Virus record (IMG/VR): IMGVR_UViG_3300021962_004029
Location: 1 to 28,649 of that record
Length of the DNA: 28,649 bases
Source of the DNA: a virus
Strand: one strand, 5' to 3'
Position 1 is the first letter of the stretch, and every line of letters starts with the position of its first letter. Under the pieces are notes generated by a model. The model searched no databases. It was not told where the DNA came from and saw only the letters and a list, made by a program, of their open reading frames with translations. Shown in pieces: positions 750 to 19,274 of this stretch. The position numbers and the translations under genes were made by a program.

Positions 750-857
750 ATGAGAGCAAAGACACTCGCAGAAGCTAGAAATAAAGCAACTTTGTTTGAT
801 AGTCCAGCGATTATCTATAGAACGGAGTCCGGGCCCATTAGAAAAATATATAAATAA
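750..857 (+). CDS. Possible 35-aa peptide
   Basis: An open frame of 35 codons runs from ATG 750 to TAA 855-857. It begins MRAKTLAEARNKATL and looks like an amphipathic basic helix followed by a short tail. A weak AAGAG lies about 4 bases before the ATG. Its last codons are the late promoter motif itself (849-856), so late transcription of the next gene would not include it. It may be a real small gene read from upstream or a chance frame; I have no family match. Confidence 0.3.
   Translation: MRAKTLAEARNKATLFDSPAIIYRTESGPIRKIYK
849..856 (+). promoter_or_regulatory. T4-type late promoter (TATAAATA)
   Basis: The sequence TATAAATA is the T4 late promoter consensus, recognised in T4 by the phage late sigma factor gp55 with gp33 and the sliding clamp. 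Marine relatives use NATAAATA. It sits 34 bases before the start codon of the virion protein at 891, with no conserved -35 element, as expected for a late promoter. The octamer is likely to occur a few times by chance in this AT-rich window, so its position between genes is the main support. Confidence 0.65.
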
Positions 858-890: not shown

Positions 891-1613
891 ATGGCAATTT
901 CGAAATACTTAGATAACAATTCAATCGATATCGCTAAAGGTATTGTAACTGGTGTATCTCATATTCATGTTTTAGGCGCTGTTCCAGTCATGTCTCAATC
1001 ACAGACTGGTACCATATGGGATGTAAACGATGTGAAATATCCATGGCATGTATTTGATTCAGACATAACAAAGATTTCTTATGTTGCAGCAGATGCAGCT
1101 GATAGTGGAGATAGTCTTACTATTATTGGACTAGATACAAACTATGATCCTTTACAAGAAACAGTAACAGTTACAACAACTCCACAATTGACAACCAATA
1201 CATTTAAACGAGTATTCAGAGCATTCTCAAGTGCAGATAATGCTGGAACTTTAACAATGTCAAAAAACGGTATTGTGGTTGCACGAATAAATGCTGGTAA
1301 CGCACAAACTCTTATGTCAGTGTATACTATTCCTAGAGGCAAAACTGGATTCTTAACAAAAGTTATATGTACAACACAAACAGGCGCTGACGGTATTGGA
1401 AACATGCATGAAAGAATTAGCGCTACTGGCGCTTTTAGAGTAGGTCATACTTTTGAAGTTACTGGTGCCGGTGGATTTTATGAATACACATTTACTATTC
1501 CAGAGAGGATGCCAGAAAAGACTGATATAGACGTAAGAGTTACAGCAAGAACAAATAATGGAAGATATACTTCTGTTTTTGATATGATACTATTAGATAA
1601 TGGCATTGCGTAA
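891..1613 (+). CDS. Putative virion structural protein (240 aa)
   Basis: This 240-residue protein is rich in Thr, Gly and Val and looks all-beta, without signal or membrane segments. The middle (GNAQTLMSVYTIPRGKTGFL) and the end (FTIPERMPEKTDIDVRVTAR) resemble structural proteins I know from marine T4-like phages, which share an IP-x-GKTG turn and a PEKxDIDxR segment. The role in the particle (head decoration, neck or tail) is not clear. AAAGG at about 876-880 is the likely binding site for ATG 891, and the late promoter at 849 fits late expression. The next gene starts on the last base of its stop codon. Confidence 0.7.
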   Translation: MAISKYLDNNSIDIAKGIVTGVSHIHVLGAVPVMSQSQTGTIWDVNDVKYPWHVFDSDITKISYVAADAADSGDSLTIIGLDTNYDPLQETVTVTTTPQLTTNTFKRVFRAFSSADNAGTLTMSKNGIVVARINAGNAQTLMSVYTIPRGKTGFLTKVICTTQTGADGIGNMHERISATGAFRVGHTFEVTGAGGFYEYTFTIPERMPEKTDIDVRVTARTNNGRYTSVFDMILLDNGIA

Positions 1614-2842
1614 TGGAATCCTTTTTAAATTATATTACTGAACAAAAGAACACTCATATGACACACATTGAGGATAAACTTCTCTATGGTGGCGTCAATG
1701 GTACACGACAAGCTATCAATGCATTAAGATCTTTACGAGACATGTTAAGAGGTTCTCACGAAGGTAAAGTATCTGTAAAGTGGGATGGTGCACCTGCTAT
1801 CTTCTGTGGTACCGATCCAAGAGACGGACAATTCTTTGTAGCCAAGAAAGGTATCTTTAATAAAAATCCTAAAGTTTATAAAACCAATTCGGAAATTGAT
1901 GCTGACACTTCAGGTGATTTAGCATCAAAACTGAAACTCGCTTTAGCACATCTACCTGAATTAGGTATTAAAGGTGTGATACAGGGAGACTTCTTATTTT
2001 CAAAAAGTGATTTGAAAATGGAAACGTATGACGGTGAAAAGTATTTAACCTTTCATCCTAATACAATAGTATATGCAGTACCAGCTAATTCTGATATAGC
2101 TACAACTATTAAAAGAGCTAAGATAGGAATTGTATGGCATACTTCATATAGTGGTAGAAGCTTTGAGTCTATGACAGCTTCTTATGGAGTAAATGTTAGT
2201 AACTTTAAATCTAGTGCTAACGTTTGGTCACAAGATGCAATGCTTCGGGATTTAACTAATGCAACATTATCTAAAGAAGATACGGAGACTATAAATGAAT
2301 ATCTTTCACAAATTGGGAAACTTTTTAACAAAGTTGCTGGGTCAACCCTCAGAGAACTCGAAAGTAACCAAGAACTCGCACAACACATCGAACAGTTCAA
2401 CAACACTTATGTCCGCGCTGGAACCGTTATCATCAACACCAGAGCTCACACCAAAAAAGTTCAAAACTGGATCGCCAAAAAGTACCGCGCAGAAGCCCAA
2501 AAACGCAAGACTAGCGCAGGCAAAGAGGCGCAGTACAAAAAAGCCGAACAACTCTTAAGCTTTTTCTCACCAGCTAACACTATGAGTCTAATTAATTTGT
2601 TTGAATTACAAAAACTCATAGTGTTAGTGAAACTAAAACTTATAAATAAATTGAATCAATTAGCGAAACTTAAAACCTTTGTAAAAACCAAGCAAGGTTT
2701 TAAAGTAACAGGGCAAGAAGGTTTTGTCGCTATTGATACACTTGGTGGTGATGCGGTAAAGATTGTTGATAGAATGGAATTTTCATACAACAACTTTTCG
2801 CCAGATATATTAAAAGGATGGGATAAACCAACTAGGAAGTAA
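1613..2842 (+). CDS. Ligase-fold nucleotidyltransferase-like protein (DUF6267-like)
   Basis: This 409-residue protein resembles a conserved T4-like phage family that I recall as DUF6267. It carries what look like the motifs of covalent nucleotidyltransferases (DNA/RNA ligases, capping enzymes): motif I KWDG at residues 56-59 with Lys56 as candidate nucleotide-binding lysine, a motif III-like GVIQGDF at 121-127, motif IV EGFVAI at 369-374, and motif V AVKIVDR at 381-387. A Lys/Arg-rich helical insert at about 243-350 separates the two halves. The first residues, ESFLNYITE, resemble a capsid-targeting sequence with an ITE cleavage site. Codon use changes sharply at about 2338-2565. Substrate and activity are unknown; a structural, inactive relative is possible. 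Confidence 0.65.
   Translation: MESFLNYITEQKNTHMTHIEDKLLYGGVNGTRQAINALRSLRDMLRGSHEGKVSVKWDGAPAIFCGTDPRDGQFFVAKKGIFNKNPKVYKTNSEIDADTSGDLASKLKLALAHLPELGIKGVIQGDFLFSKSDLKMETYDGEKYLTFHPNTIVYAVPANSDIATTIKRAKIGIVWHTSYSGRSFESMTASYGVNVSNFKSSANVWSQDAMLRDLTNATLSKEDTETINEYLSQIGKLFNKVAGSTLRELESNQELAQHIEQFNNTYVRAGTVIINTRAHTKKVQNWIAKKYRAEAQKRKTSAGKEAQYKKAEQLLSFFSPANTMSLINLFELQKLIVLVKLKLINKLNQLAKLKTFVKTKQGFKVTGQEGFVAIDTLGGDAVKIVDRMEFSYNNFSPDILKGWDKPTRK
2574..2627 (+). repeat. Perfect 14-bp inverted repeat inside a coding region
   Basis: CTAACACTATGAGT at 2574-2587 is the exact reverse complement of 2614-2627, with a 26-base AT-rich spacer. It lies within the nucleotidyltransferase-like gene, just after the stretch with aberrant codon use. 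In RNA it would form a stable hairpin inside the message. It may be an insertion scar, an mRNA structure or a protein binding site. Confidence 0.7.
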
Positions 2843-2843
2843 T

Positions 2844-3335
2844 ATGGCAACAGTAAGCTTTAAAGACTTTAATCCGGTAAACTATAAGCCCGGTGAAGAC
2901 GAAATAATACAACGACAAGCTAAGAAAAGAAAATTGGATATACCTACTGGTAATACCGGTGAAGGTTTAGAAAACGAAGCACTTTCATTAGCACAAAGAC
3001 GTAAAAGATCTATTCTTATTAAACGTATGAAAGCCAGAATAGCTATCGGTCGTAAAAAAGCAGCCAGAAGGATGGCATCTGTTGATGTCCTTAAAAGAAG
3101 AGCACAAAAACAAGCTCGTAACCTTATATTCAAAAAGTTAACTAAAGGCAAACCCAGAGCTGAAGTATCACCACAAAGACGCGCAGAGATTGAAAAACGT
3201 TTAGACAAAATGAAAGGACGTATTTCTAAAATTGCTCAGCGTATCTTACCTAAAGTAAGAAAAATGGAAATAGCTAGAAAGCGAGGAGAAAAACCCTCAG
3301 CACCTAGCGGTACTCAATCTGGAGTAAGCGTCTAG
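2844..3335 (+). CDS. Highly basic conserved phage protein (163 aa)
   Basis: This 163-residue protein is very rich in Lys and Arg (for example RKKAARRMASVDVLKRRAQK, then repeated KR-type helices to about residue 150) and ends in a flexible Ser/Gly/Pro tail. It has no signal, membrane segment or known catalytic motif. The charge suggests nucleic acid binding or a role inside the DNA-filled head. Similar basic proteins stand between the two nucleotidyltransferases in other marine T4-like phages, as I recall. The start ATG 2844 follows the upstream stop by one base, so translation is probably coupled; GGAAG lies at 2835-2839. Confidence 0.6.
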   Translation: MATVSFKDFNPVNYKPGEDEIIQRQAKKRKLDIPTGNTGEGLENEALSLAQRRKRSILIKRMKARIAIGRKKAARRMASVDVLKRRAQKQARNLIFKKLTKGKPRAEVSPQRRAEIEKRLDKMKGRISKIAQRILPKVRKMEIARKRGEKPSAPSGTQSGVSV

Positions 3336-4303
3336 TGGTTTCATCATTTAAACAATACCTCGTAGAGGCTGAGAAAGAGATCTATTTTACTTTTGGTAGA
3401 ATGAATCCTCCTACTATCGGTCATGGTAAAGTATTTGATAAGTTAGCTCAGGTAGCTAATCGTAATCCATATAAAGTATTTTTATCGCAAGTACAAGATA
3501 GTAAAAAGAATCCTTTAAACTATTCTCAGAAAGTTAAGTTTGCAAGAAAAATGTTTCCTAAACATGCAAGAAACATTTTAATTAATAAAAAAGTAAAAAC
3601 AGTATTTGACGCTGTACAAACTTTATTTGATCAAGGCTATAATAAAATTAATATGGTAGTAGGATCAGATAGAATTAATGAGTTTACTATATTGTTAAAC
3701 AAATACAATGGAGTGAAAGGTAAACACGGTTTTTATAAATTTGAAAAGATTAATGTTATATCTGCAGGAGAAAGAGATCCAGATCAAGATGACGCAACTG
3801 GAATGTCAGCTACTAAATTAAGAACAGCTGCAGCAGATAACGACTTTGTAACTTTTACACAAGGACTTCCTAAAGGAGTAACTAATCCAGAAGCTAAGAA
3901 AGTATTTGCTGCTGTGCGTGCTGGATTAGGTTTAAAAGAAACTAAAGACTTTAGGAATCATGTGTCGTTGGAAAAAGTCTCTGAGACACGAGAACAATAT
4001 GTTAAAGGACAATTGTTTGAGTTAGGAGATTCAGTTATTATAAAGAAAACACAACAACAAGGTAAGGTTACTTGGTTGGGTTCTAATTATGTAGTCGTAG
4101 AAGCTGATGACAAATCATATAGATGTTGGTTAGAGGCTGTAAAGAAAGTAACACCTGTGACTGTAGCTAAAGATAAAATAGCTAAAGAAAAAGAAGCAGA
4201 TAAAAAGAAACACGATCGTATGATGGATAGAGCTAGAACACAACATACTACCAATCTTAACAAACGAGTAGAATTTAAAGAATTTTTAAGGAAAGCAAAA
4301 TGA
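3335..4303 (+). CDS. HxGH-type nucleotidyltransferase with C-terminal basic tail
   Basis: This 322-residue protein has the nucleotidyltransferase alpha/beta-phosphodiesterase fold (cytidylyltransferases, NMN adenylyltransferases). The nucleotide-binding motif GRMNPPTIGH is at residues 21-30, VVGSDRINEF at 107-116 and the second signature MSATKLR at 157-163. The C-terminal third has a small beta-rich part (about 225-270) and a charged helix. It transfers a nucleotide from an NTP to a phosphate-bearing acceptor, but which one is not clear. The start is GTG 3335, sharing the G of the upstream TAG, with GGAG at 3321-3324. The N-terminus SSFKQYLVEA resembles a capsid-targeting sequence with an LVE|A site. 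It overlaps the next gene as ATGA. Confidence 0.8.
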   Translation: MVSSFKQYLVEAEKEIYFTFGRMNPPTIGHGKVFDKLAQVANRNPYKVFLSQVQDSKKNPLNYSQKVKFARKMFPKHARNILINKKVKTVFDAVQTLFDQGYNKINMVVGSDRINEFTILLNKYNGVKGKHGFYKFEKINVISAGERDPDQDDATGMSATKLRTAAADNDFVTFTQGLPKGVTNPEAKKVFAAVRAGLGLKETKDFRNHVSLEKVSETREQYVKGQLFELGDSVIIKKTQQQGKVTWLGSNYVVVEADDKSYRCWLEAVKKVTPVTVAKDKIAKEKEADKKKHDRMMDRARTQHTTNLNKRVEFKEFLRKAK

Positions 4304-5571
4304 AGTACGACTACGGAACACCGGAATCAGTTAAACTAATGAAACAACAAACACCAGGGCAACAAGAGGGCACTATGAAACCACATAACATGAAAGATCC
4401 ATCTACGGGTAAGATGGTTAAGATAACTTCTACTGATAAGCATGATAAGATTCTTGCTAAGAGAAAAGGTTTTAAAGAGTTTGCACAGGGTTTGTCTGAT
4501 CGTGAACTAACTAAACAAGAATTAAAGAGAAGAGAAGAAATTGCTAAGTCTCTTCCAGACGCTGATTTCAAAAAGAAATATGGCTCTCAATGGATGGCTA
4601 TTAAGATGGCCACGGCAACTAAAATGGCTAAGAATGAAGGATTAAAAGATCCTAAAGACAATCCATGTTGGCCAGGACATGAGCCAGTAGGTACTAAGAT
4701 AAAGAATGGTAAGACTGTACCTAATTGTGTTCCTAAAGAAAGCATTGATGAAGCAGTTAGATTCAATCATGGTGAAAAGGTTATTGCGGTAGCAAGGAGA
4801 GGAAAGAACGAATTTGAAATTACCCATAAGGGTCGAGAGTTCAAATTGTATCAAAATAATAAATTCCATGGTACATACAAATCAATGGACTTAGCCAAAA
4901 AGGCAATGAATGAAGTAAAATTAGTGCCAGGTTTTGTAGGAGCAGATGGTAAACTTACTGCTAAGCCTACAGCTAAAGACTATGCAGCCAATAAAGAATA
5001 TCAAGGTATGAAGAAGAAAGGTATTAAACTTCCTGGTCCTAAGAGTCCTATCACTTCAGCCGACGTACAAAAAGCTTTAGCTATTGTAAGATCACCTAAG
5101 TATAGAGATTATTACACAGGTGCTTACAATGCTATTAATAGAATTAAATCAGGTTTAGCAAAACATCCTGTAGTTGCAAAAGCTCTTCGATTAGCTAATG
5201 AAAATAAAAAGCAACCACAGACAGAAGCTAAAATAAGTTTTGCTAAAATGGCAAGACGCGATGCTATGAGAGGTATGGGTAAACAAAGTAAAGTAGATCC
5301 AGCAGACGTAGACGAACCATCCGATGATGGTTCTAGAGCAGGTTTGAATCCTATCATGCAATTAAGAAAAGCCAAAGATGTAAAAGGTAACTATATGATT
5401 ACCTTTGCAGATGGCAAAAAGAAGAAATTAAATCCTGCAACTATTGATAAATTATTAAGAATGCACGATTCATTACCAAAACCCGATGCTAAATTAAAGT
5501 TTGCAAACTTCGTAGGTAAGTCTTATGCAAATGCAGTAAAAGCATCAACTATGCTTAGACAGGAGTATTAA
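4300..5571 (+). CDS. Mosaic prohead-type structural protein (423 aa)
   Basis: This 423-residue protein joins several short modules that recur in marine T4-like phage proteins. Residues about 70-113 (LTKQELKRREEIAKSLP, then ATATKMAK) form a helical module. Residues about 121-146 carry a CW...VGTKIKNGKTVPNCVP motif with Cys123 and Cys143. A small beta-rich part follows at about 153-207, then basic linkers, and finally a C-terminal domain from about 315. I know these modules from capsid-associated or core proteins, but the exact role is unproven. The family is not enzymatic by any motif I can see. It overlaps the upstream gene by 4 bases, and the next gene starts on its last base. Confidence 0.6.
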   Translation: MKYDYGTPESVKLMKQQTPGQQEGTMKPHNMKDPSTGKMVKITSTDKHDKILAKRKGFKEFAQGLSDRELTKQELKRREEIAKSLPDADFKKKYGSQWMAIKMATATKMAKNEGLKDPKDNPCWPGHEPVGTKIKNGKTVPNCVPKESIDEAVRFNHGEKVIAVARRGKNEFEITHKGREFKLYQNNKFHGTYKSMDLAKKAMNEVKLVPGFVGADGKLTAKPTAKDYAANKEYQGMKKKGIKLPGPKSPITSADVQKALAIVRSPKYRDYYTGAYNAINRIKSGLAKHPVVAKALRLANENKKQPQTEAKISFAKMARRDAMRGMGKQSKVDPADVDEPSDDGSRAGLNPIMQLRKAKDVKGNYMITFADGKKKKLNPATIDKLLRMHDSLPKPDAKLKFANFVGKSYANAVKASTMLRQEY

Positions 5572-6368
5572 TGGCTGACTCAGACGTAGCACCAGACTTA
5601 GTAGGCGTAAACGTCAACATGGACGCTTATAATAGCCGCTGGGATTATATGGCTGCTCGTGCGGGTGGAGGTAATAGACCTTGCTTAGATATTAACAATG
5701 TAGATCCTGATTGTTTGGATCATAATATTGTTTGTACTTTTAGTAATATGCATCTAGTGCAAGCTGAAGTAGAGGGTTTAATGACAGCCTTTGATTACGG
5801 TTATGGCTTTAACTTTTTAAGTAAATTTAAAAGTGGAGCACAGCCTTATACTTACGACTTAGATAAGTACGATATGGACCAAATGGGACTATCTACTAAT
5901 GATATCTTTGTACAAAAAATAACAGGTAATCAATTAAAGGGAGTTCAAAATGATATTCCCAATATATGGAAAATAATTAATTGGTTTGGGTTTGTAGATC
6001 ATATTACTTGCAAACTTCATTTTCAATTCCCAGGACAAGTGTTTCCGTTCCACTTTGATGATTTAACTAAACAAAGAGGAACAGATGCAGTAGATGATTC
6101 TTTAGATGCTGATCCAGATACTTGGGCTAGAGTAGAAGTACAAATCTATGATTGGGATTGGGGTCATGTATGGGCTTTAGCTCATACTTATTGGACTCAT
6201 TGGAAAGCAGGTGAAGTAGTATGGCATGATTGGAATACAGTACCTCATGGTACTGCCAATTGTGGTATGTCCAAACGAGTAACTTTACAAATAAGTGGTC
6301 AAACAGATGCTGCATTGCAAGCTAAGTTAAGAGCTAACAATGGCACTATTGACCTAACAACATTATAG
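5571..6368 (+). CDS. Probable 2-oxoglutarate/Fe(II) oxygenase
   Basis: This 265-residue protein looks like a double-stranded beta-helix oxygenase. A metal-binding HxD is at His161-Phe-Asp163 in a VFPFHFDD context. The distal His226 lies in VPHGTANCG, and Arg236 (SKRVTLQISG), ten residues later, fits the 2-oxoglutarate carboxylate contact. The tryptophan-rich strand before His226 is typical of phage members. Known relatives hydroxylate protein side chains, nucleobases or small molecules; the substrate here is unknown. It sits among virion genes, so a capsid or core protein is a possible target. The start ATG 5571 overlaps the upstream TAA by one base. A cupin-like structural protein is the main alternative. 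Confidence 0.7.
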   Translation: MADSDVAPDLVGVNVNMDAYNSRWDYMAARAGGGNRPCLDINNVDPDCLDHNIVCTFSNMHLVQAEVEGLMTAFDYGYGFNFLSKFKSGAQPYTYDLDKYDMDQMGLSTNDIFVQKITGNQLKGVQNDIPNIWKIINWFGFVDHITCKLHFQFPGQVFPFHFDDLTKQRGTDAVDDSLDADPDTWARVEVQIYDWDWGHVWALAHTYWTHWKAGEVVWHDWNTVPHGTANCGMSKRVTLQISGQTDAALQAKLRANNGTIDLTTL

Positions 6369-6370
6369 AG

Positions 6371-6646
6371 ATGAGTATGAATTTTAAAACATTAAGAAAA
6401 GTTATTAAAGCAGCTGGACTCATCGAAAAGAAAATTAAAGAAGATGACGATGAGAGAGAATACGATTATGAAGGCGAAATGGCTAAAAATGATCTAAAGA
6501 CTGTTATCGATGCAGCTGAAGAAATAAAAGATATGCTGGAAGATGATAGCAACCTACCTGAATGGGTACAAGCTAAAATTACTAAAGCAACGGACTATTT
6601 GGATTCAGTCCGAGACTATTTAAAGTCTGAAAATAAAGAATCTTAA
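6371..6646 (+). CDS. Conserved acidic helical phage protein (91 aa)
   Basis: This 91-residue acidic protein contains DYEGEMAKNDLKTVIDAA and LPEWVQAKITKATDYLDSVR, a combination I know from small conserved proteins of marine T4-like phages, usually near virion genes. It looks all-helical. Function is unknown. Two starts are possible, ATG 6371 and ATG 6377 (MNFKTLRKV). Neither has a strong binding site, and coupling to the upstream stop 2 bases away is likely. Confidence 0.7.
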   Translation: MSMNFKTLRKVIKAAGLIEKKIKEDDDEREYDYEGEMAKNDLKTVIDAAEEIKDMLEDDSNLPEWVQAKITKATDYLDSVRDYLKSENKES

Positions 6647-6662
6647 CACATAGGAGAAAAGT

Positions 6663-6869
6663 ATGTTAAATTACTTCAATATAGCAATGTTATGGATCAA
6701 AGCGAGACTAGGAGAAAGAACCTCTTGGGATGGCGGTGTGCTCATAGCTGTTTGTTTATTAGTGCTAGTAGCTAATCCAATAGTTAAATTAGTCGCATGG
6801 GGCGGTTTAGCTTGGGGTATCTACACCTTAGTAAAAGCAGAATACGTTGCGGTGAAAGGAAAGAAATAA
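6663..6869 (+). CDS. Small membrane protein (68 aa)
   Basis: This 68-residue protein has a hydrophobic stretch from about residue 25 to 58, long enough for two closely spaced helices with a turn at ANPIVK. The tail is basic (KGKK). A good site, TAGGAGAAAAGT, precedes ATG 6663. It could be a head-associated or host inner membrane protein; nothing marks it as a holin beyond size and hydrophobicity. The next gene follows one base after its stop. Confidence 0.65.
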   Translation: MLNYFNIAMLWIKARLGERTSWDGGVLIAVCLLVLVANPIVKLVAWGGLAWGIYTLVKAEYVAVKGKK

Positions 6870-6870
6870 G

Positions 6871-7428
6871 ATGAAATTTAGAAAGTATTTAGAAGAGTCC
6901 AAATGTGATGCCGTGTGTTGTGAAGAGACACAAGTCTCTGAGCTTATCGAAAACAATGTGTTTCGTGTTGGGTCACGTTCTTACTATGAATACTTTCGTA
7001 ATATAAGAGAATCTTATAAAGCCGGACAGCTTAATATTATAAGTAGTAAATTCGACATTGAACTCCTAGAAGGTTCTTTGGGCGAGTTCGCAGAATACGA
7101 GGGCAATCCAGTTCCACTAGATTGTCCTCTATTCGAAGAGGAAGATAAAGATCCTCCTATTGGTAAACCTAGAAGAGGTGGACCTAAAAAGTTTTACGTC
7201 TATGTAAGAAAGGCAGATGGTGGCGTAAAGAAAGTTACTTTTGGAGCTAAAGACGGTGGCTCTAATCTATCTGTCAAATTAAATAATCCAGATGCAAGAA
7301 GATCATTTGTTGCTAGACATAGATGCGATCAGCAGAATGATAAAGAATCGGCGGCTTATTGGGCCTGCAGATTACCTTATTACGCTAAACAATTAGGTAT
7401 GTCTGGTGGCGGTTCGTTCTTCTGGTAA
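6871..7428 (+). CDS. Conserved marine T4-like phage protein (185 aa)
   Basis: This 185-residue protein has an N-terminal part (1-100) and a well-marked C-terminal domain. The latter starts with IGKPRRGGPKKFYVYV, continues through VKKVTFGAKDGG, and ends with a RHRCDQQNDK / AAYWACRLP motif and a Gly-rich tip. I know this C-terminal domain from many cyanophage and pelagiphage proteins of unknown function. The N-terminus KFRKYLEES resembles a capsid-targeting sequence with an LEE|S site. Paired cysteines at 13, 17 and 18 in the N-terminal part are unusual. It shares one base with the next gene. Confidence 0.7.
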   Translation: MKFRKYLEESKCDAVCCEETQVSELIENNVFRVGSRSYYEYFRNIRESYKAGQLNIISSKFDIELLEGSLGEFAEYEGNPVPLDCPLFEEEDKDPPIGKPRRGGPKKFYVYVRKADGGVKKVTFGAKDGGSNLSVKLNNPDARRSFVARHRCDQQNDKESAAYWACRLPYYAKQLGMSGGGSFFW

Positions 7429-8045
7429 TGAAAGGTTTTAGAGAATATATAAAAGAAGCTTATATTCCTTCTTTGAATGTATTCGATATTGATGATACTC
7501 TTTTTACAACAAAGACTATGATCAATATTATGAAAGACGGTAAAGTAGTTAAAAGTATTACTAACCGAGAATATAATGATTATAAATTAAAAGACGGCGA
7601 ATCTTATGACTTTGCTCAATTTAGAAACGCCAGCACCTTTGCTAAGCAAGCTACTCCTATTGGACGCATGATAGCAAAGATGAAAAAGTTAATAAGAAAT
7701 GCTACGGCTAAAGGATCTAAAGTTATTATATCTACAGCACGAGCAGATTTCGATAATAAGAAAGTATTCTTAGATGCTTTAGCTGCTCACGGTATAGATG
7801 TTGATAAGATCTATGTTGAGAGATCAGGTAACCTTCAATTAGGTTCTGCAGCTAAGAATAAAAAGGCTATATTTAGAAAATACCTAAGAGGTGGTAAATA
7901 TAGATTAGTAAGATTTTTTGATGATGATATAAAAAATATTACCTCTTTTCTTTCATTAGAAAAGGAATTAGGTGATGTAGAATTGGAAGCTTGGCATGTA
8001 CAAAAAGACGGAAGAGTTAAAAAAGCCGTACGAAGAAGTAGATAA
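7428..8045 (+). CDS. HAD-superfamily phosphatase
   Basis: This 205-residue protein has all four HAD motifs: motif I FDIDDTLF with Asp20 and Asp22, motif II IISTARA with Thr103, a lysine-bearing motif III at about 143-146 (KNKK), and motif IV FFDDD at 164-167. HAD enzymes of this size usually remove phosphate from nucleotides, sugars or nucleic acid ends. A polynucleotide 3'-phosphatase role like that of T4 PseT is possible but unproven. The N-terminus MKGFREYIKEAY resembles a capsid-targeting sequence with an IKE|A site. Start and upstream stop overlap as TAATG. Confidence 0.8.
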   Translation: MKGFREYIKEAYIPSLNVFDIDDTLFTTKTMINIMKDGKVVKSITNREYNDYKLKDGESYDFAQFRNASTFAKQATPIGRMIAKMKKLIRNATAKGSKVIISTARADFDNKKVFLDALAAHGIDVDKIYVERSGNLQLGSAAKNKKAIFRKYLRGGKYRLVRFFDDDIKNITSFLSLEKELGDVELEAWHVQKDGRVKKAVRRSR

Positions 8046-8274
8046 TATACGTACATTTAAAGCTAGCGTAGACGATATAGAATTAGTATGGCATCGTGAT
8101 AGAGAGAAAAGAACTATTACGGTACTAGAAGGTAACAATTGGCAATTACAATTAGATGATGAGTTACCGATAACTATGGGAGTGGGTGATAGTTTTATTA
8201 TTAACGAGATGACCTACCATCGAATTATTAAAGGTGATGGTGATCTAAAAGTTAAAATTTATAAATGGAGTTAA
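7996..8274 (+). CDS. Small cupin-like phage protein (92 aa)
   Basis: This protein of about 92 residues contains VWHRDREKRTITVLEG, then WQLQLDDELPITMGVGDSF and YHRIIKGDGDLKVKIYKW. This is the pattern of a short cupin-like barrel found in marine T4-like phages; the role is unknown. It overlaps the HAD gene by 50 bases. No later ATG gives a complete domain, so ATG 7996 with GGAAG before it is the best start, though a non-ATG start near 8040 cannot be excluded. Confidence 0.6.
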   Translation: MYKKTEELKKPYEEVDNIRTFKASVDDIELVWHRDREKRTITVLEGNNWQLQLDDELPITMGVGDSFIINEMTYHRIIKGDGDLKVKIYKWS

Positions 8275-8278
8275 GGAA

Positions 8279-8599
8279 ATGGCCGAAACAAATGGCGTTA
8301 GATTAGATCGTATAGAAGAGAAGCTTGATAAGCTATCTGATGCTATAGTAGCTATCGCACGCGCTGAAGAAAAAATCATAGCTATGGAGAAAAGATTTGA
8401 CTTCATGGAAGTAGATAGAACGAAGTTATATCAAAAAGTAGATGAAATGCACGATGATATCGATTGCATGAAAGGTACTGTTGATAATAACGCTCAGACT
8501 GTAGCTAATATAAATAAGTTATTCTGGGTCCTACTGTTAGCAATTATCGGTAGCTTGGTAGGGCACGCATTTGGATTACCGATAGATTTTATAGGTTAG
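8279..8599 (+). CDS. Coiled-coil protein with C-terminal membrane anchor (106 aa)
   Basis: This 106-residue protein has a long heptad-patterned helix from about residue 5 to 82 (LDRIEEKLDKLSDAIVAIAR onward). One C-terminal hydrophobic segment follows at about 85-100 (FWVLLLAIIGSLVG). That makes it a tail-anchored coiled coil, soluble part in the cytoplasm. Such proteins are common in phages and their roles are mostly unknown. GGAG at 8267-8270 is well placed for ATG 8279. An internal TATAAATA at 8509-8516 could serve the next gene but may be chance. Confidence 0.65.
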   Translation: MAETNGVRLDRIEEKLDKLSDAIVAIARAEEKIIAMEKRFDFMEVDRTKLYQKVDEMHDDIDCMKGTVDNNAQTVANINKLFWVLLLAIIGSLVGHAFGLPIDFIG

Positions 8600-8606
8600 G
8601 AGCAAC

Positions 8607-9362
8607 ATGAAAACCGAAGACATTAAAAATATGGCAAAGATTCTTGCAGATATGCAAGAAGCCAAGAAAAAAGAGGCTATGGACCCAGTGGGTAAAGCCG
8701 ACGCCGACATCGACAACGATGGCGACGCTGATAAAACTGATAAGTATCTACACAATCGACGCAAAGCTATTAAAAAAGCTATGGGTAAAGATGACAAAGA
8801 TATGGATACCAAAAATGCTGACAAAGCAATGATGCATGACTGTGCAAAGCATGTACTACATAAAGAACATGGCGAAGGTAATTGTATTCCTGGCCAACAT
8901 ACTTTAGTAGAACAAGAAGATGGTACAGCTATTGTAACTCATTACGATGTAGACTTCAATGGTACTATAGTAGAGAACATCCCAGTAGAAGATTTAGAAA
9001 TTTTAGTTTCTGAAAGCCACATGCATACTAAAAAGAAAGCTAAAACAGAAGTTAAAGAAAGTGCTGAACTTACTTATGCTTATGTAGAAAAGATTAAGGA
9101 TGCTATTAAACAAATGTGGGAAGCAGCTGTTCAAAAGAGCCCTGAAGAAACTAAAGATTCACAAGAGAAACAACTTAAAAGATCAAAGGGTGAAGAAGAC
9201 TTCGTAAAGAAACATGTTACTGATAAAGTCGATGGTGAAAAAATAGAAGGTGATTCTATTGATAAATTAAAAGCAGGTGGCAAACAAGCTCCAGCTAGGC
9301 CAGGCGATAATAAGTCAGGTGACAAAAACGTAGTTAACCCAGTTAAAGATACTACTAAGTAG
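8607..9362 (+). CDS. Acidic/basic prohead core-type protein with DxDxDGD motif (251 aa)
   Basis: This 251-residue charged protein carries DADIDNDGDADKTDKYLHNR at about 32-51, a calcium-loop-like motif followed by RRKAIKKAM. I know this unit from capsid core or structural proteins of marine T4-like phages. The middle (about 95-135) is beta-rich. The rest is low-complexity Lys/Glu sequence, ending in a disordered Gly/Pro/Lys tail. A scaffold or internal head role fits the composition but is inference. GGAG is at 8599-8602 before ATG 8607. Confidence 0.65.
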   Translation: MKTEDIKNMAKILADMQEAKKKEAMDPVGKADADIDNDGDADKTDKYLHNRRKAIKKAMGKDDKDMDTKNADKAMMHDCAKHVLHKEHGEGNCIPGQHTLVEQEDGTAIVTHYDVDFNGTIVENIPVEDLEILVSESHMHTKKKAKTEVKESAELTYAYVEKIKDAIKQMWEAAVQKSPEETKDSQEKQLKRSKGEEDFVKKHVTDKVDGEKIEGDSIDKLKAGGKQAPARPGDNKSGDKNVVNPVKDTTK

Positions 9363-9364
9363 TA

Positions 9365-9382
9365 TTAAGAGTATAGTCTTAA
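9365..9382 (+). other. Weak hairpin in the 82-base gap before 9445
   Basis: TTAAGA at 9365-9370 pairs with TCTTAA at 9377-9382 around a 6-base loop. It is AT-rich and has no T-run. I see no convincing promoter in 9363-9444. Confidence 0.25.
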
Positions 9383-9444
9383 GAAAACTATGCTCCAGTT
9401 AACTTGAGACTGTGTAAGTATTATTAAAACAAGTGAGGTAAATA

Positions 9445-9789
9445 ATGGCTAAAATTCAACCACCTAGGTGGGCACCAGACGCGATTCCAACAGACAGAGG
9501 TTGGGTATCTAAGTCAGGAGAGTTATTAGTAAGTCGAAAACATAGACAAGATGAACTAGACGAATACTTTGGTGTCACTGCAGCTCCAGCTGTAGAAAAG
9601 ACAGTAAATGAGTTTACAGGTATGATAGAATCAGAACCTGTACTATTAACTGAAGCACCAGTAGGTAATATATCATTAGAGAGTATGACTAAAGCACAAT
9701 TACAAGCTTTAGCTAACGAACATGGTATAGTGTTTAAAGGTTTTGTAAAAAAAGAGGATATGATCGAACAGTTACTAGAAGTACTTTAA
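9445..9789 (+). CDS. Conserved phage protein with C-terminal SAP/HeH-like domain
   Basis: This 114-residue protein has two parts. The N-terminal part (PPRWAPDAIPTDRGWVSKSG, then ELLVSRKHRQ) is a module I know from cyanophages. The C-terminal 35 residues (SMTKAQLQALANEHGIVFKG, then KKEDMIEQLLE) look like a helix-extended-loop-helix domain of the SAP/HeH/LEM type, which often binds nucleic acid. A disordered linker joins them. GTGAGG lies 8 bases before ATG 9445. Its stop codon falls inside a small hairpin. Confidence 0.7.
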   Translation: MAKIQPPRWAPDAIPTDRGWVSKSGELLVSRKHRQDELDEYFGVTAAPAVEKTVNEFTGMIESEPVLLTEAPVGNISLESMTKAQLQALANEHGIVFKGFVKKEDMIEQLLEVL

Positions 9790-9804
9790 TATATACTATT
9801 AAAG
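9784..9804 (+). other. AT-rich hairpin spanning the stop codon
   Basis: CTTTAATA at 9784-9791 is complementary to TATTAAAG at 9797-9804 around loop TATAC. The loop resembles the TATGC loop of the hairpin at 643. No T-run follows. It may only slow RNase or mark the end of the upstream gene. Confidence 0.35.
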
Positions 9805-9808
9805 CATT

Positions 9809-10177
9809 ATGAAACTATTTGATACATTAAACGAAAGTAACTTTTTAATATTTGCAGCAAAGCATTATTATAGCCCAACCTGCATTGATTCGGATGAGTT
9901 CTTTGAGGACCTTAAACGATTCAAATATATTAAAAGGTTAGTTAATCGTTACCTTGATAAGGACGAATTATCTGAAAGGTTGATACTCAATCATTTGATT
10001 GTAATCTTCAACGTTTTCGGTACACCGGCAGGATTAAAAATGCTGGAGTATCGCCTAGAGGATAATCACTGGCCTGTGATAAAACCATTTTTGATTTTTC
10101 TTAATGCTATTAGTAATACTGACATGATTGGTATAAAAATGGACGAACGAGTAGTAGAAAAATTAAGGAAAGTTTAA
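9809..10177 (+). CDS. Conserved T4-like phage protein (122 aa)
   Basis: This 122-residue protein looks all-helical. It resembles a conserved protein of T4-like cyanophages that begins KLFDTLxESN and contains KRFKYIKRLVNRYL and RLILNHLIVIFNVFG; I recall a DUF7207-type label but am not certain. Function is unknown. The start MKLFDTLNESN has an LNE|S triplet like the other capsid-targeting candidates, though it is the weakest of the set. No strong binding site precedes ATG 9809; a TATACT at 9792-9797 stands just upstream. The next ATG directly follows its stop. Confidence 0.7.
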   Translation: MKLFDTLNESNFLIFAAKHYYSPTCIDSDEFFEDLKRFKYIKRLVNRYLDKDELSERLILNHLIVIFNVFGTPAGLKMLEYRLEDNHWPVIKPFLIFLNAISNTDMIGIKMDERVVEKLRKV

Positions 10178-10750
10178 ATGTCATTATTAACTAGAGCCGG
10201 AGACTTAGTATATACTTTTAGATTCCTAAGACTGCTTACTACACCTTTCAAAGAAACTACTGCTTTTAAATTAGGTATTATTGATGATAAAGGCAAACGT
10301 GTTAAGAGCGTACCTTTAGATACATCAGAAAAGAAATCAGCTTATAATACCTTTCATCGTTTAGCTTTCAACATTAAAAAACTATTAGGTAGCTCCACGC
10401 CAGCTTCTTATGCTGCAGCTTTATTTCTATTAAAAGAAAAATACAATATTACAGAACCTAATATACAAAAGATATTACAGACTCACAATCTAGAAGTATT
10501 AGACTTACTAGATGAGCAAACAAATTGGTTTATACTACCTGATTCAATACTAACTCCAGGTATATATAGAATCAAGTCTGATAAAATGGTTAATCAGACT
10601 TGCGAAGAAATAGCATACGAAGGTGATAAGGTACGCGTGCAAGAACAAGCTCTACCTGTAGGTGATATGTTTGGTATTCCTGTTTATGAAGCTATTCATA
10701 TGTCAACCAACCAAGCAATATATGTAACTGCAGGAGAATTAGTACGATGA
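10178..10750 (+). CDS. Conserved T4-like phage structural-region protein (190 aa)
   Basis: This 190-residue protein has two parts. Residues 1-110 are helical and include FRFLRLLTTPFKET, AFKLGIIDDKGKRVK and FHRLAFNIKKLLG, a set I know from marine T4-like phage genomes near virion genes. Residues about 118-190 are beta-rich (LTPGIYRIKSDKMV, then MFGIPVYEAIHM). There are no catalytic motifs I can name. It follows the 122-residue gene without a gap and overlaps the next gene as ATGA, so the three are co-translated. Confidence 0.65.
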   Translation: MSLLTRAGDLVYTFRFLRLLTTPFKETTAFKLGIIDDKGKRVKSVPLDTSEKKSAYNTFHRLAFNIKKLLGSSTPASYAAALFLLKEKYNITEPNIQKILQTHNLEVLDLLDEQTNWFILPDSILTPGIYRIKSDKMVNQTCEEIAYEGDKVRVQEQALPVGDMFGIPVYEAIHMSTNQAIYVTAGELVR

Positions 10751-11031
10751 AAACATTTTGTAAATGGTTAGAAGACGTACCTTCTACCTCTACTGCATCG
10801 GTAGCAATGCCTCCCACGATGCGCAAAAAGAAAAAACTATTTGATGTACCTACTCACATCTTTAGACGATTTCAAAACAATGAAAGAGTTAAATACGAAC
10901 GATGGGTTAAATATTTAGGTACTGGTATGTATGAAGACAGCGTGTTGAATTACATTAAAGATAATAAACAAACAGAAATTATTTTAAGAGATAACGTTTC
11001 CGGGCAAACAAAAACTATTAAGTCAGTATAA
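10747..11031 (+). CDS. Small conserved phage protein with capsid-targeting-like N-terminus (94 aa)
   Basis: This 94-residue protein starts MKTFCKWLEDV, like the T4 internal-protein leader MKTYQEFIAE that I recall, with L-E-D at the possible cleavage site. A Thr/Ser/Pro linker and KKKKLFDVPTHIFRRFQNN follow, then a small alpha/beta end. Function is unknown. It is the last gene of the virion region; the nrdA promoter starts 5 bases after its stop. Confidence 0.65.
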   Translation: MKTFCKWLEDVPSTSTASVAMPPTMRKKKKLFDVPTHIFRRFQNNERVKYERWVKYLGTGMYEDSVLNYIKDNKQTEIILRDNVSGQTKTIKSV

Positions 11032-11035
11032 CTGC

Positions 11036-11064
11036 TTGACATTTCGAACCGGATAGTATATAAT
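11036..11064 (+). promoter_or_regulatory. Consensus sigma70-type promoter for nrdAB
   Basis: TTGACA at 11036-11041 and TATAAT at 11059-11064 are separated by exactly 17 bases, a perfect match to the bacterial housekeeping promoter. The predicted start is about 11071, giving a 14-base leader that contains AAGGAG before the nrdA ATG. This suggests early expression by host RNA polymerase. Confidence 0.85.
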
Positions 11065-16319: not shown

Positions 16320-16748
16320 ATGGACTACTCATATAAATGTAAAATAGTTAAAATAATAGATGGTGATACTGCAGACATAGATATCGATCTAGGTTTCGAC
16401 GTTTGGTTAAGAAATCAAAGAGTTCGATTTATGGGTATTGATACGCCCGAGTCTAGAACATCGAATAAAGAAGAAAAGGTATTTGGTTTATTAGCTAAAG
16501 ATTTTGTAAAAGGTTATTTGCCAACAGGTTCATCACAAACTCTATTAACATTCAAAGATGAAACAGGTAAGTTCGGTAGAATACTGGCTGACTTCTTAAT
16601 AGAGATTAATGGAGAACAAAAGAGATTAGTACAACATATGATTGATTCTCATATGGGTGTACCATACTTTGGACAATCAAAGAATGATATTGAAGATTTA
16701 CATTTAGCTAATCGTAAAATACTTATCGAGTCAGGATTGACAAAGTAA
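16320..16748 (+). CDS. Thermonuclease (staphylococcal nuclease-like)
   Basis: This 142-residue protein matches the staphylococcal nuclease fold: IIDGDTADIDID at 12-23, VRFMGIDTPES at 35-45 with Arg36, Asp41 and Glu44, and KFGRILADF with Arg87. These correspond to the Ca-binding and catalytic residues of the family. No signal peptide is present, so it probably acts in the infected cell on host DNA or RNA. I chose ATG 16320 because AAGGAA is at 16309-16314; the upstream ATG 16284 lies inside the carbamoyltransferase gene. Its last codons contain the next promoter's -35 box. Confidence 0.88.
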   Translation: MDYSYKCKIVKIIDGDTADIDIDLGFDVWLRNQRVRFMGIDTPESRTSNKEEKVFGLLAKDFVKGYLPTGSSQTLLTFKDETGKFGRILADFLIEINGEQKRLVQHMIDSHMGVPYFGQSKNDIEDLHLANRKILIESGLTK

Positions 16749-16765
16749 TAAATATCATATATAAT
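16737..16765 (+). promoter_or_regulatory. Consensus sigma70-type promoter before the DUF6433-like gene
   Basis: TTGACA at 16737-16742 and TATAAT at 16760-16765 have a perfect 17-base spacer. The expected start is about 16772, with GCGAGG before ATG 16789. A late-promoter-like AATAAATA at 16747-16754 lies within the spacer, so dual early and late use is possible. Confidence 0.85.
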
Positions 16766-16788
16766 ATATTATTGAAAGCGAGGTTATT

Positions 16789-18841: not shown

Positions 18842-19274
18842 AGAAGCAGTATACGAACAATTAAAAATAGATGAAGGTGTAGTGTATGAGATTTATCTTG
18901 ACCACCTTGGTTATCCTACGTTTGGCGTTGGTCATCTTATTACCGATGCCGATGAAGAATCAGGGAAACCAGTTGGTACCGCAGTCAGCGAGGAGCGTGT
19001 TAAGAAATGTTTTGAAAGAGACTTAACTACAGCTATCGGTGAATGTCAAGCCTTATACGAAGACTTTGATACTTGGCCTGATGAAGTGCAACAAGTATTA
19101 GTAAACATGATGTTTAATATGGGTCGCACTAGACTATCTGGATTTAAAAACTTCAAAGCAGCTTTAGATGCTAAAGACTGGAAGAAGGCAGCAGTAGAAG
19201 GCAGAGACTCTAAATGGTACAAACAAGTTACCAATAGAGCAGAAAGATTAATGAAACGATTAGAAGTAGTATGA
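18834..19274 (+). CDS. T4-type lysozyme (endolysin, GH24)
   Basis: This 146-residue protein cleaves the glycan strands of peptidoglycan at lysis. The catalytic triad of T4 lysozyme (Glu11, Asp20, Thr26) appears with a constant +3 offset as Glu14 (IDEG), Asp23 (YLD) and Thr29 (PTFGVGH). The C-terminal half has [17 protein letters not shown] and [12 protein letters not shown]. It is a little shorter than T4 lysozyme (164) and has no signal peptide, so a holin is needed. I chose ATG 18834, in frame with a longer frame that would run through the rubrerythrin gene. No clear holin lies beside it. Confidence 0.92.

Follow-up and report, generated by a model that had tools for sequence, protein, structure and literature searches.

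Why should five unrelated proteins encoded within one stretch of phage DNA begin with nearly the same short leader? The question is raised by a 28.6 kb virus fragment, IMG/VR record IMGVR_UViG_3300021962_004029 (positions 1 to 28,649; this whole stretch is referred to as the window), in which the plus-strand genes beginning at 1613, 3335, 6871, 7428 and 10747 share an N-terminus that resembles the prohead-targeting leader of the T4 internal proteins. By its sequence, the source is a marine T4-like, Kyanoviridae-like phage. We propose, with good confidence, that the five genes specify head cargo of this T4-like phage, carrying T4-type leaders that would be cut by a gp21-type protease before ejection of the proteins with the DNA. 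The cargo appears to be largely enzymatic, including two nucleotidyltransferases, one RNA-ligase-like and the other NMNAT-like, and a HAD phosphatase.

A shared leader in the window and in related loci

The leader was formulated as M-x(1-6)-[FYW]xx[FYW][LIV]x[ED], that is, two aromatic residues three apart followed by (L/I)-x-(E/D). It matches five of the 52 window genes, exactly those at 1613, 3335, 6871, 7428 and 10747, so that every one of the five leader starts reported in the initial annotation was recovered in its place. At non-terminal positions of the window proteins the pattern occurs 24 times in 7,883 (0.3%), giving a binomial P of 6e-7 for the gene starts, and when residues 2-16 were shuffled in 5,000 trials the mean was 0.07 matches and the maximum 2, five never being reached. 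As the pattern was drawn up after the five leaders had been seen, the window statistic alone is circular and the weight must be carried by the out-of-sample tests given below. The five genes are also concentrated in one region, representing 5 of the 16 genes in 1613-11031 versus 0 of the 36 elsewhere in the window (P 0.0017), and the codons differ among their leaders.

All five leaders have aromatic residues near positions 4 and 7, and the register of T4 is exact in three of them, MESFLNYITE (1613..1642; F4, Y7, I8 and E10 in T4 IPIII numbering), MKGFREYIKE (7428..7457; F4, Y7, I8 and E10, with Ala as the next residue) and MKTFCKWLED (10747..10776). It is offset by one in MVSSFKQYLVE (3335..3367; followed by Ala, from a GTG start, MVSSFKQYLVEA) and in MKFRKYLEE (6871..6897; followed by Ser). 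The cut motif (L/I)-x-E is present in the leaders of 1613, 3335, 6871 and 7428 and is absent from that of 10747, in which the targeting half is intact and position 10 is Asp. A weaker sixth leader proposed in the initial annotation, MKLFDTLNES at 9809, is instead the beginning of a DUF7207 domain (gene 9809..10177, plus strand; PF23837, 9.8e-43, matching from residue 4), and the pattern was found in 0 of 60 members of that family. Nor did Ala or Ser after the Glu prove to be a feature of the leader, as the residue that follows in 174 distinct leaders is Q in 39, E in 34 and A in 21.

The out-of-sample test used approximately 170 related IMG/VR loci that were retrieved with three window proteins; since these loci are related to each other and were obtained with leader-bearing queries, the figures from them are counts and not independent trials. 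Protein families were clustered with the leader removed and under coverage limits. The leader is present at 225 of 2,254 open reading frame (ORF) starts (10%) compared with 21 of 9,197 internal Met residues (0.23%), a 44-fold difference, and it is spread over 39 families, 22 of which have at least two tagged members. Tagged members make up 75 of 100 in the DUF6267 family to which the 1613 protein belongs, 68 of 83 in the 3335 family and 7 of 12 in the HAD family of the 7428 protein. Besides DUF7207, two other families that neighbor the leader genes, one of them represented by gene 10178, had no match in 52 and 28 members, respectively, and none was found among helicase-like (0/13) or primase-like (0/17) proteins. 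The pattern specifies residue classes and does not favor Glu over Asp or Phe over Tyr or Trp; the 174 distinct leaders have Glu at P1 in 169, Phe at P7 in 167 and Leu or Ile at P3 in 165.

The closest isolate genome is that of Phage C48C1 (Kyanoviridae), with 65% identity in DUF6267 and 59% in the cytidyltransferase, followed by Stenotrophomonas phage DLP_6, Methylophilales phage Melnitz, cyanophages and pelagiphage HTVC008M. A 17.9 kb IMG/VR contig has 100% identity across the leader genes taken as queries and is thus no independent witness. All six genuine leaders of C48C1 are in one cassette at 57-68 kb, upstream of nrdA and distant from the head genes (8-18 kb), and the head, tail and replication genes are free of them. 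The same gene group lies between gp41 and gp61/nrdA in S-SM1, S-CRM01 and HTVC008M. The C48C1 cytidyltransferase (L003:16622-18031) has been annotated from MNPPT, which omits its likely true GTG start and the leader (MIKNFSQYLLEEE), and gene callers may be hiding leaders in other genomes. Among the related loci, an adenylate kinase (L137:163-747; PF00406, E 1.6e-43) bears the leader MKTFLEFITEA, and three more members of its family are tagged.

The T4 precedent and the virions of relatives

In the T4 record IPII and IPIII both begin with MKTYQEFIAEA, and IPI with MKTFKEFTSTTTPVSTITEA. The T4 leader given in the initial annotation is thus correct for IPII and IPIII and mistaken for Alt, which begins with MELITELFDED. 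Alt is similar to the proposed cargo in being a packaged ADP-ribosyltransferase that is processed by gp21 and injected, but its N-terminus has no aromatic pair, which rules it out as a bearer of the same leader. Mutagenesis in the Black laboratory has established that residues 4 and 7 of the T4 leader are needed for targeting and residues 8 and 10 for cutting, that Asp at position 10 prevents cutting while targeting is kept, and that ten residues of the IPIII leader suffice to package foreign proteins (PMC9026906). The aromatics and the (L/I)xE of the window leaders fall at the positions so mapped. In view of the T4 data on Asp at position 10, the 10747 protein is predicted to be packaged but not cut.

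The window proteins share with IPI, IPII and IPIII a leader of some ten N-terminal residues that is common to unrelated proteins, with aromatics at 4 and 7, (L/I) at 8 and Glu at 10, but the tagged proteins of T4 are few, small and basic, whereas in the window ligase-like, NMNAT-like and HAD enzymes are tagged, in a cassette near nrdA. Over the whole T4 genome the pattern matches IPII, IPIII, 61.1 and an unannotated upstream in-frame start of 61.4. Gene 61.1 (L236:1467-1631; positions 18966-19130 of the T4 record; 54 residues) has a perfect capsid-targeting leader (MKTFKEFIKEDM) and is located between genes 61 and 41, the position of the cargo cassette in the marine relatives; its product may be a head protein of T4 that has gone unnoticed.

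The same aromatic-L-x-E is found where the major capsid protein is cut. In T4 the context is GSFLTE/AEIG, and by analogy with it the cut positions were assigned to GGFLTE/TGP in C48C1, MNFLAE/TPT in G002, NNFLTE/AAP in G001 and KAFLGE/IAN in HTVC008M. The comparison of leader and capsid cut sites suggested in the initial annotation could be made in the relatives, as the window is without gp23, and there the two agree.

The virion proteome of cyanophage S-CREM2, which has been published with coordinates (PMC10665884, Table 3), provides an independent test. The strict pattern matches three of 219 annotated S-CREM2 proteins, the S-adenosylmethionine (SAM) hydrolase gp6 (leader MKDFDSFLEEF), the APH-like kinase gp14 (MKRFDAFLTEEE) and the cytidylyltransferase gp154 (MKNFSSFLTEAD), and all three are in the virion (Fisher P 0.013 versus all proteins, and 0.0022 with the named structural proteins removed). 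Hence the leader is not equally common on non-virion proteins, a possibility that the initial annotation had taken as adverse, and this result together with the confinement of the C48C1 leaders to one cassette favors packaging. The remaining non-structural enzymes in S-CREM2 virions are a Cas9-like nuclease and two endolysins. The nuclease (L192:7704-10313) has an offset leader-like stretch, RFASFMAEA (MTSRWSNWSTGSDKKPLRFASFMAEA), which the start of S-CRM01 g128 (MRQSRWAKWSRGTEVKLSLDSFIKEA) resembles, and by analogy with T4 IPI these stretches are possibly a longer type of leader. The aromatic pair by itself was rejected as a predictor, being weak in S-CREM2.

Proteins related to that of gene 3335 with the same leader recur in the virions of other cyanophages. 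The sole match among 215 ORFs of S-SM1 is the GC190 cytidyltransferase (MKKFSAFLNEAE; 40% identical to the 3335 protein), which was detected in virions (PMC3037559). In S-SZBM1 the cytidylyltransferase carries MRFRQFIIEA and its DUF6267 neighbor is leaderless, and the virion list includes the former and not the latter (PMC9146016). The NMNAT of S-SCSM1, ORF91, starts with MKSFLQFLKEAA, in which the leader is MKSFLQFLKEA, and was reported from virions (PMC9602691). S-CRM01 has a kinase with the leader MISFDQFLSEK (MISFDQFLSEKK), and kinases have been reported in its virions (PMC10665884). The earlier papers on the cytidylyltransferase or NMNAT-like virion proteins of S-SM1 (T4-GC190), S-CREM2, S-SZBM1 and S-SCSM1 named no packaging signal and left contamination possible; the window lineage differs from those phages in tagging DUF6267, HAD phosphatase and other proteins in addition. 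None of the papers found in a literature search, which covered mostly openly accessible papers and so leaves absence unproven, refers to DUF6267 or connects cyanophage cargo with capsid targeting.

From packaging to proposed delivery, and the alternatives

We infer core binding and, from T4, cutting and injection. During prohead formation the two leader aromatics would anchor the protein in the scaffolding core, a prohead protease of the gp21 type would then cut after (L/I)-x-E, probably sparing the 10747 protein, and the enzyme so released within the head would be ejected together with the DNA. In the opening minutes of infection, ahead of any phage gene expression, the cargo could then work on nucleotides, nicotinamide adenine dinucleotide (NAD) or broken nucleic-acid ends. 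Packaging of the leader proteins in the head, as claimed in the initial annotation, is very probable and is well supported, through orthologs and the independent S-CREM2 proteome test and not through data from this phage itself. By analogy with T4, removal of the leader from four of the five proteins is likely, and delivery to the host is a somewhat less secure step that we still consider reasonably probable. The presence of the leader on several enzymes, and of tagged enzymes in the particles of relatives, indicates that the phage probably delivers enzymes with its DNA.

Several observations weigh against this proposal. Pelagiphage HTVC008M has the cassette yet has zero strict leaders, and tagging is therefore not universal. 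The families of the 6871 and 10747 proteins keep the aromatic pair, with (L/I)xE poorly conserved in the homologs. Genes for gp21, gp22 and gp23 are not in the 28.6 kb window, and it is in C48C1 and G002 that the gp21/gp22/gp23 system was found. We know of no member of the DUF6267 or HAD families that has been detected in virions. The virion evidence as a whole is indirect and comes from published mass spectrometry of relatives. Among all S-CREM2 virion proteins the aromatic-pair-only motif was not significantly enriched (P 0.2; 0.011 after the named structural proteins were dropped), and S-SZBM1_191 (L237:2812-3129; 105 residues), despite a good leader, MKSFKSFLSES, was not detected in S-SZBM1 virions. 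The authors of both the S-CREM2 (PMC10665884) and S-SCSM1 (PMC9602691) studies allowed for co-purification.

That last caution can be extended to an alternative in which the enzymes are abundant late in infection and merely co-purify, the leader serving some other end such as binding of a host or phage partner. The peptide counts of the cytidylyltransferases are low (3 and 2), which is in keeping with it, but co-purification would not single out the leader proteins of S-CREM2, all three of which were found, and it fails to account for the match to the T4 targeting and cleavage residues and to the capsid cut site. We consider it improbable. Somewhat less improbable, though still unlikely, is that the leaders do direct the proteins to the prohead core, where they aid the assembly or filling of the head rather than reaching the host as active enzymes. 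T4 IPIII influences head morphogenesis (PMC9026906), and some leader proteins, such as those of the gene 2844 family, are small and basic. The tagged set is, however, rich in enzymes that keep their catalytic residues (the KxDG of DUF6267 and the nucleotide-binding motif of the 3335 protein) and includes adenylate kinase and the SAM hydrolase and kinase of S-CREM2, and assembly factors need no catalytic residues. It could also be argued, as the motif is short and the five genes are in one region, that the similarity is due to chance or is the remnant of a recent duplication of a single N-terminus. The 44-fold enrichment of starts over internal Met across 39 families, the differing codons of the window leaders and the invariance of the Glu in two diverged families make this highly implausible, and delivery of head cargo is the explanation that we favor.

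The cassette and its wider significance

The cassette is flanked by two promoter-like elements. A T4-type late-promoter-like element, TATAAATA (849..856, plus strand), which is the T4 late-promoter sequence, precedes gene 891 by about 35 bases, and the last leader gene ends at 11031, five bases ahead of a sigma-70 promoter with 12/12 consensus bases (11036..11064, plus strand) upstream of nrdA. All six ATAAATA sites of the window are on the plus strand, and of 75 DUF6267 loci, 46 have TATAAATA on the coding strand in the 2 kb preceding the gene, compared with one that has it on the opposite strand; CTAAATA, also considered as a promoter element, showed no excess. The cargo genes would thus form a late-expressed cassette and be made alongside the head proteins, which, as far as the sequence can tell, fits a cargo role. 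A second 12/12 sigma-70 promoter is at 16737-16765, just upstream of gene 16789, with an 11/12 match at 16772.

All of the cassette genes described here are on the plus strand. The first gene of the operon (891..1613; phrog_8198) has no leader, its stop overlaps the ATG of gene 1613, and the similar S-CREM2 gp176 is in the S-CREM2 virion proteome. Gene 1613 (1613..2842) encodes a DUF6267 protein (PF19782, 2.2e-104), a KxDG nucleotidyltransferase with a fold that appears RNA-ligase-like. Its leader Glu, E10, does not vary in an alignment of 27 homologs, and K56, D58 and G59 (motif I, KxDG), E369 and G370 (motif IV, EG) and K383 are likewise constant in 27 sequences. In the structural model (predicted local distance difference test, pLDDT, 85) residues 1-14 are disordered, which places the leader outside the folded domain. 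A Foldseek search alone gave no match at E 0.001, with E values above 0.1. The best rows of the VIA re-alignment are Naegleria RNA ligase (Z 8.4), T. brucei REL1 (8.1) and T4 Rnl2 (7.5-7.6), at 8-13% identity; the RNA-ligase rows, Z 7.3-8.4, are in a middling and not conclusive range, and unrelated DnaK helical domains are also among the rows.

The gene that follows (2844..3335) encodes a basic protein that starts with MATVSFKDFNPVNY and has the aromatic pair without (L/I)xE; the full leader is found in 5 of 78 members of its family. Gene 3335 (3335..4303; PF01467) encodes a cytidylyltransferase or NMNAT-like nucleotidyltransferase. The cut-site Glu of this protein, E11, is kept by all of 26 homologs, the (H/T)xGH motif is represented by an invariant TxGH, and the top Foldseek matches are NaMNAT, NMNAT and PPAT (E 1.8e-5 to 1e-3). 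A small DUF5824-like domain occurs as a C-terminal fusion in 3335 relatives and also by itself, with its own leader (L101:3502-4938, L105:3833-5278, L028:13029-13268). Gene 6871 (6871..7428) matches phrog_7595. Gene 7428 (7428..8045) encodes a HAD-superfamily phosphatase with a DxDxT motif (FDIDDTLF) and matches to phrog_415 (8.2e-11) and PF03767 (1.6e-5); the latter narrowly misses its curated cut-off, DUF2608 narrowly passes its own, and the protein weakly resembles the phosphatase part of polynucleotide kinase. PDB sequence searches with the 3335 and 7428 proteins gave nothing useful. Outside the cassette, the gene at 14008-14418 matches phrog_447, 'NAD synthetase', as well as homing-endonuclease families, and the PHROG name is probably wrong.

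The idea that enzyme domains are delivered along with phage DNA has also been put forward for the polyvalent phage proteins (Iyer et al., 2017; PMC5512222). The polyvalent proteins are long chains of many domains near virion genes, whereas the enzymes described here are separate and have a short leader in common, a contrast that is softened by the additional C-terminal domains of some 3335 relatives. What the cargo does can be proposed more tentatively. The nucleotide or RNA-repair toolkit of the initial annotation is plausible from folds and families, and our best guess, which we put forward with considerable doubt, is a role in early NAD, nucleotide or nucleic-acid end repair that may serve against host defense.

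The targeting signal itself is known from T4, and its use here is far wider. We are inclined to think that many marine T4-like phages have made the T4 leader a general cargo tag, comparable to a secretion signal for heads, by which a late-expressed and fast-changing cassette near nrdA would load differing enzymes in each phage, among them RNA-ligase-like, NMNAT-like, adenylate kinase, SAM hydrolase, kinase and phosphatase proteins, to act before any phage gene is expressed. Virion proteomics of cyanophages has kept finding cytidylyltransferases, kinases and SAM hydrolase that the authors could not assign to cargo or contaminant, and for these puzzling virion enzymes the ten-residue leader offers both a mechanism and a sequence test. 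The injected effectors of abundant marine phages would then become predictable from genomes alone, among them unnamed families, of which DUF6267 is one, and numerous short 'hypothetical' proteins that start with the leader.

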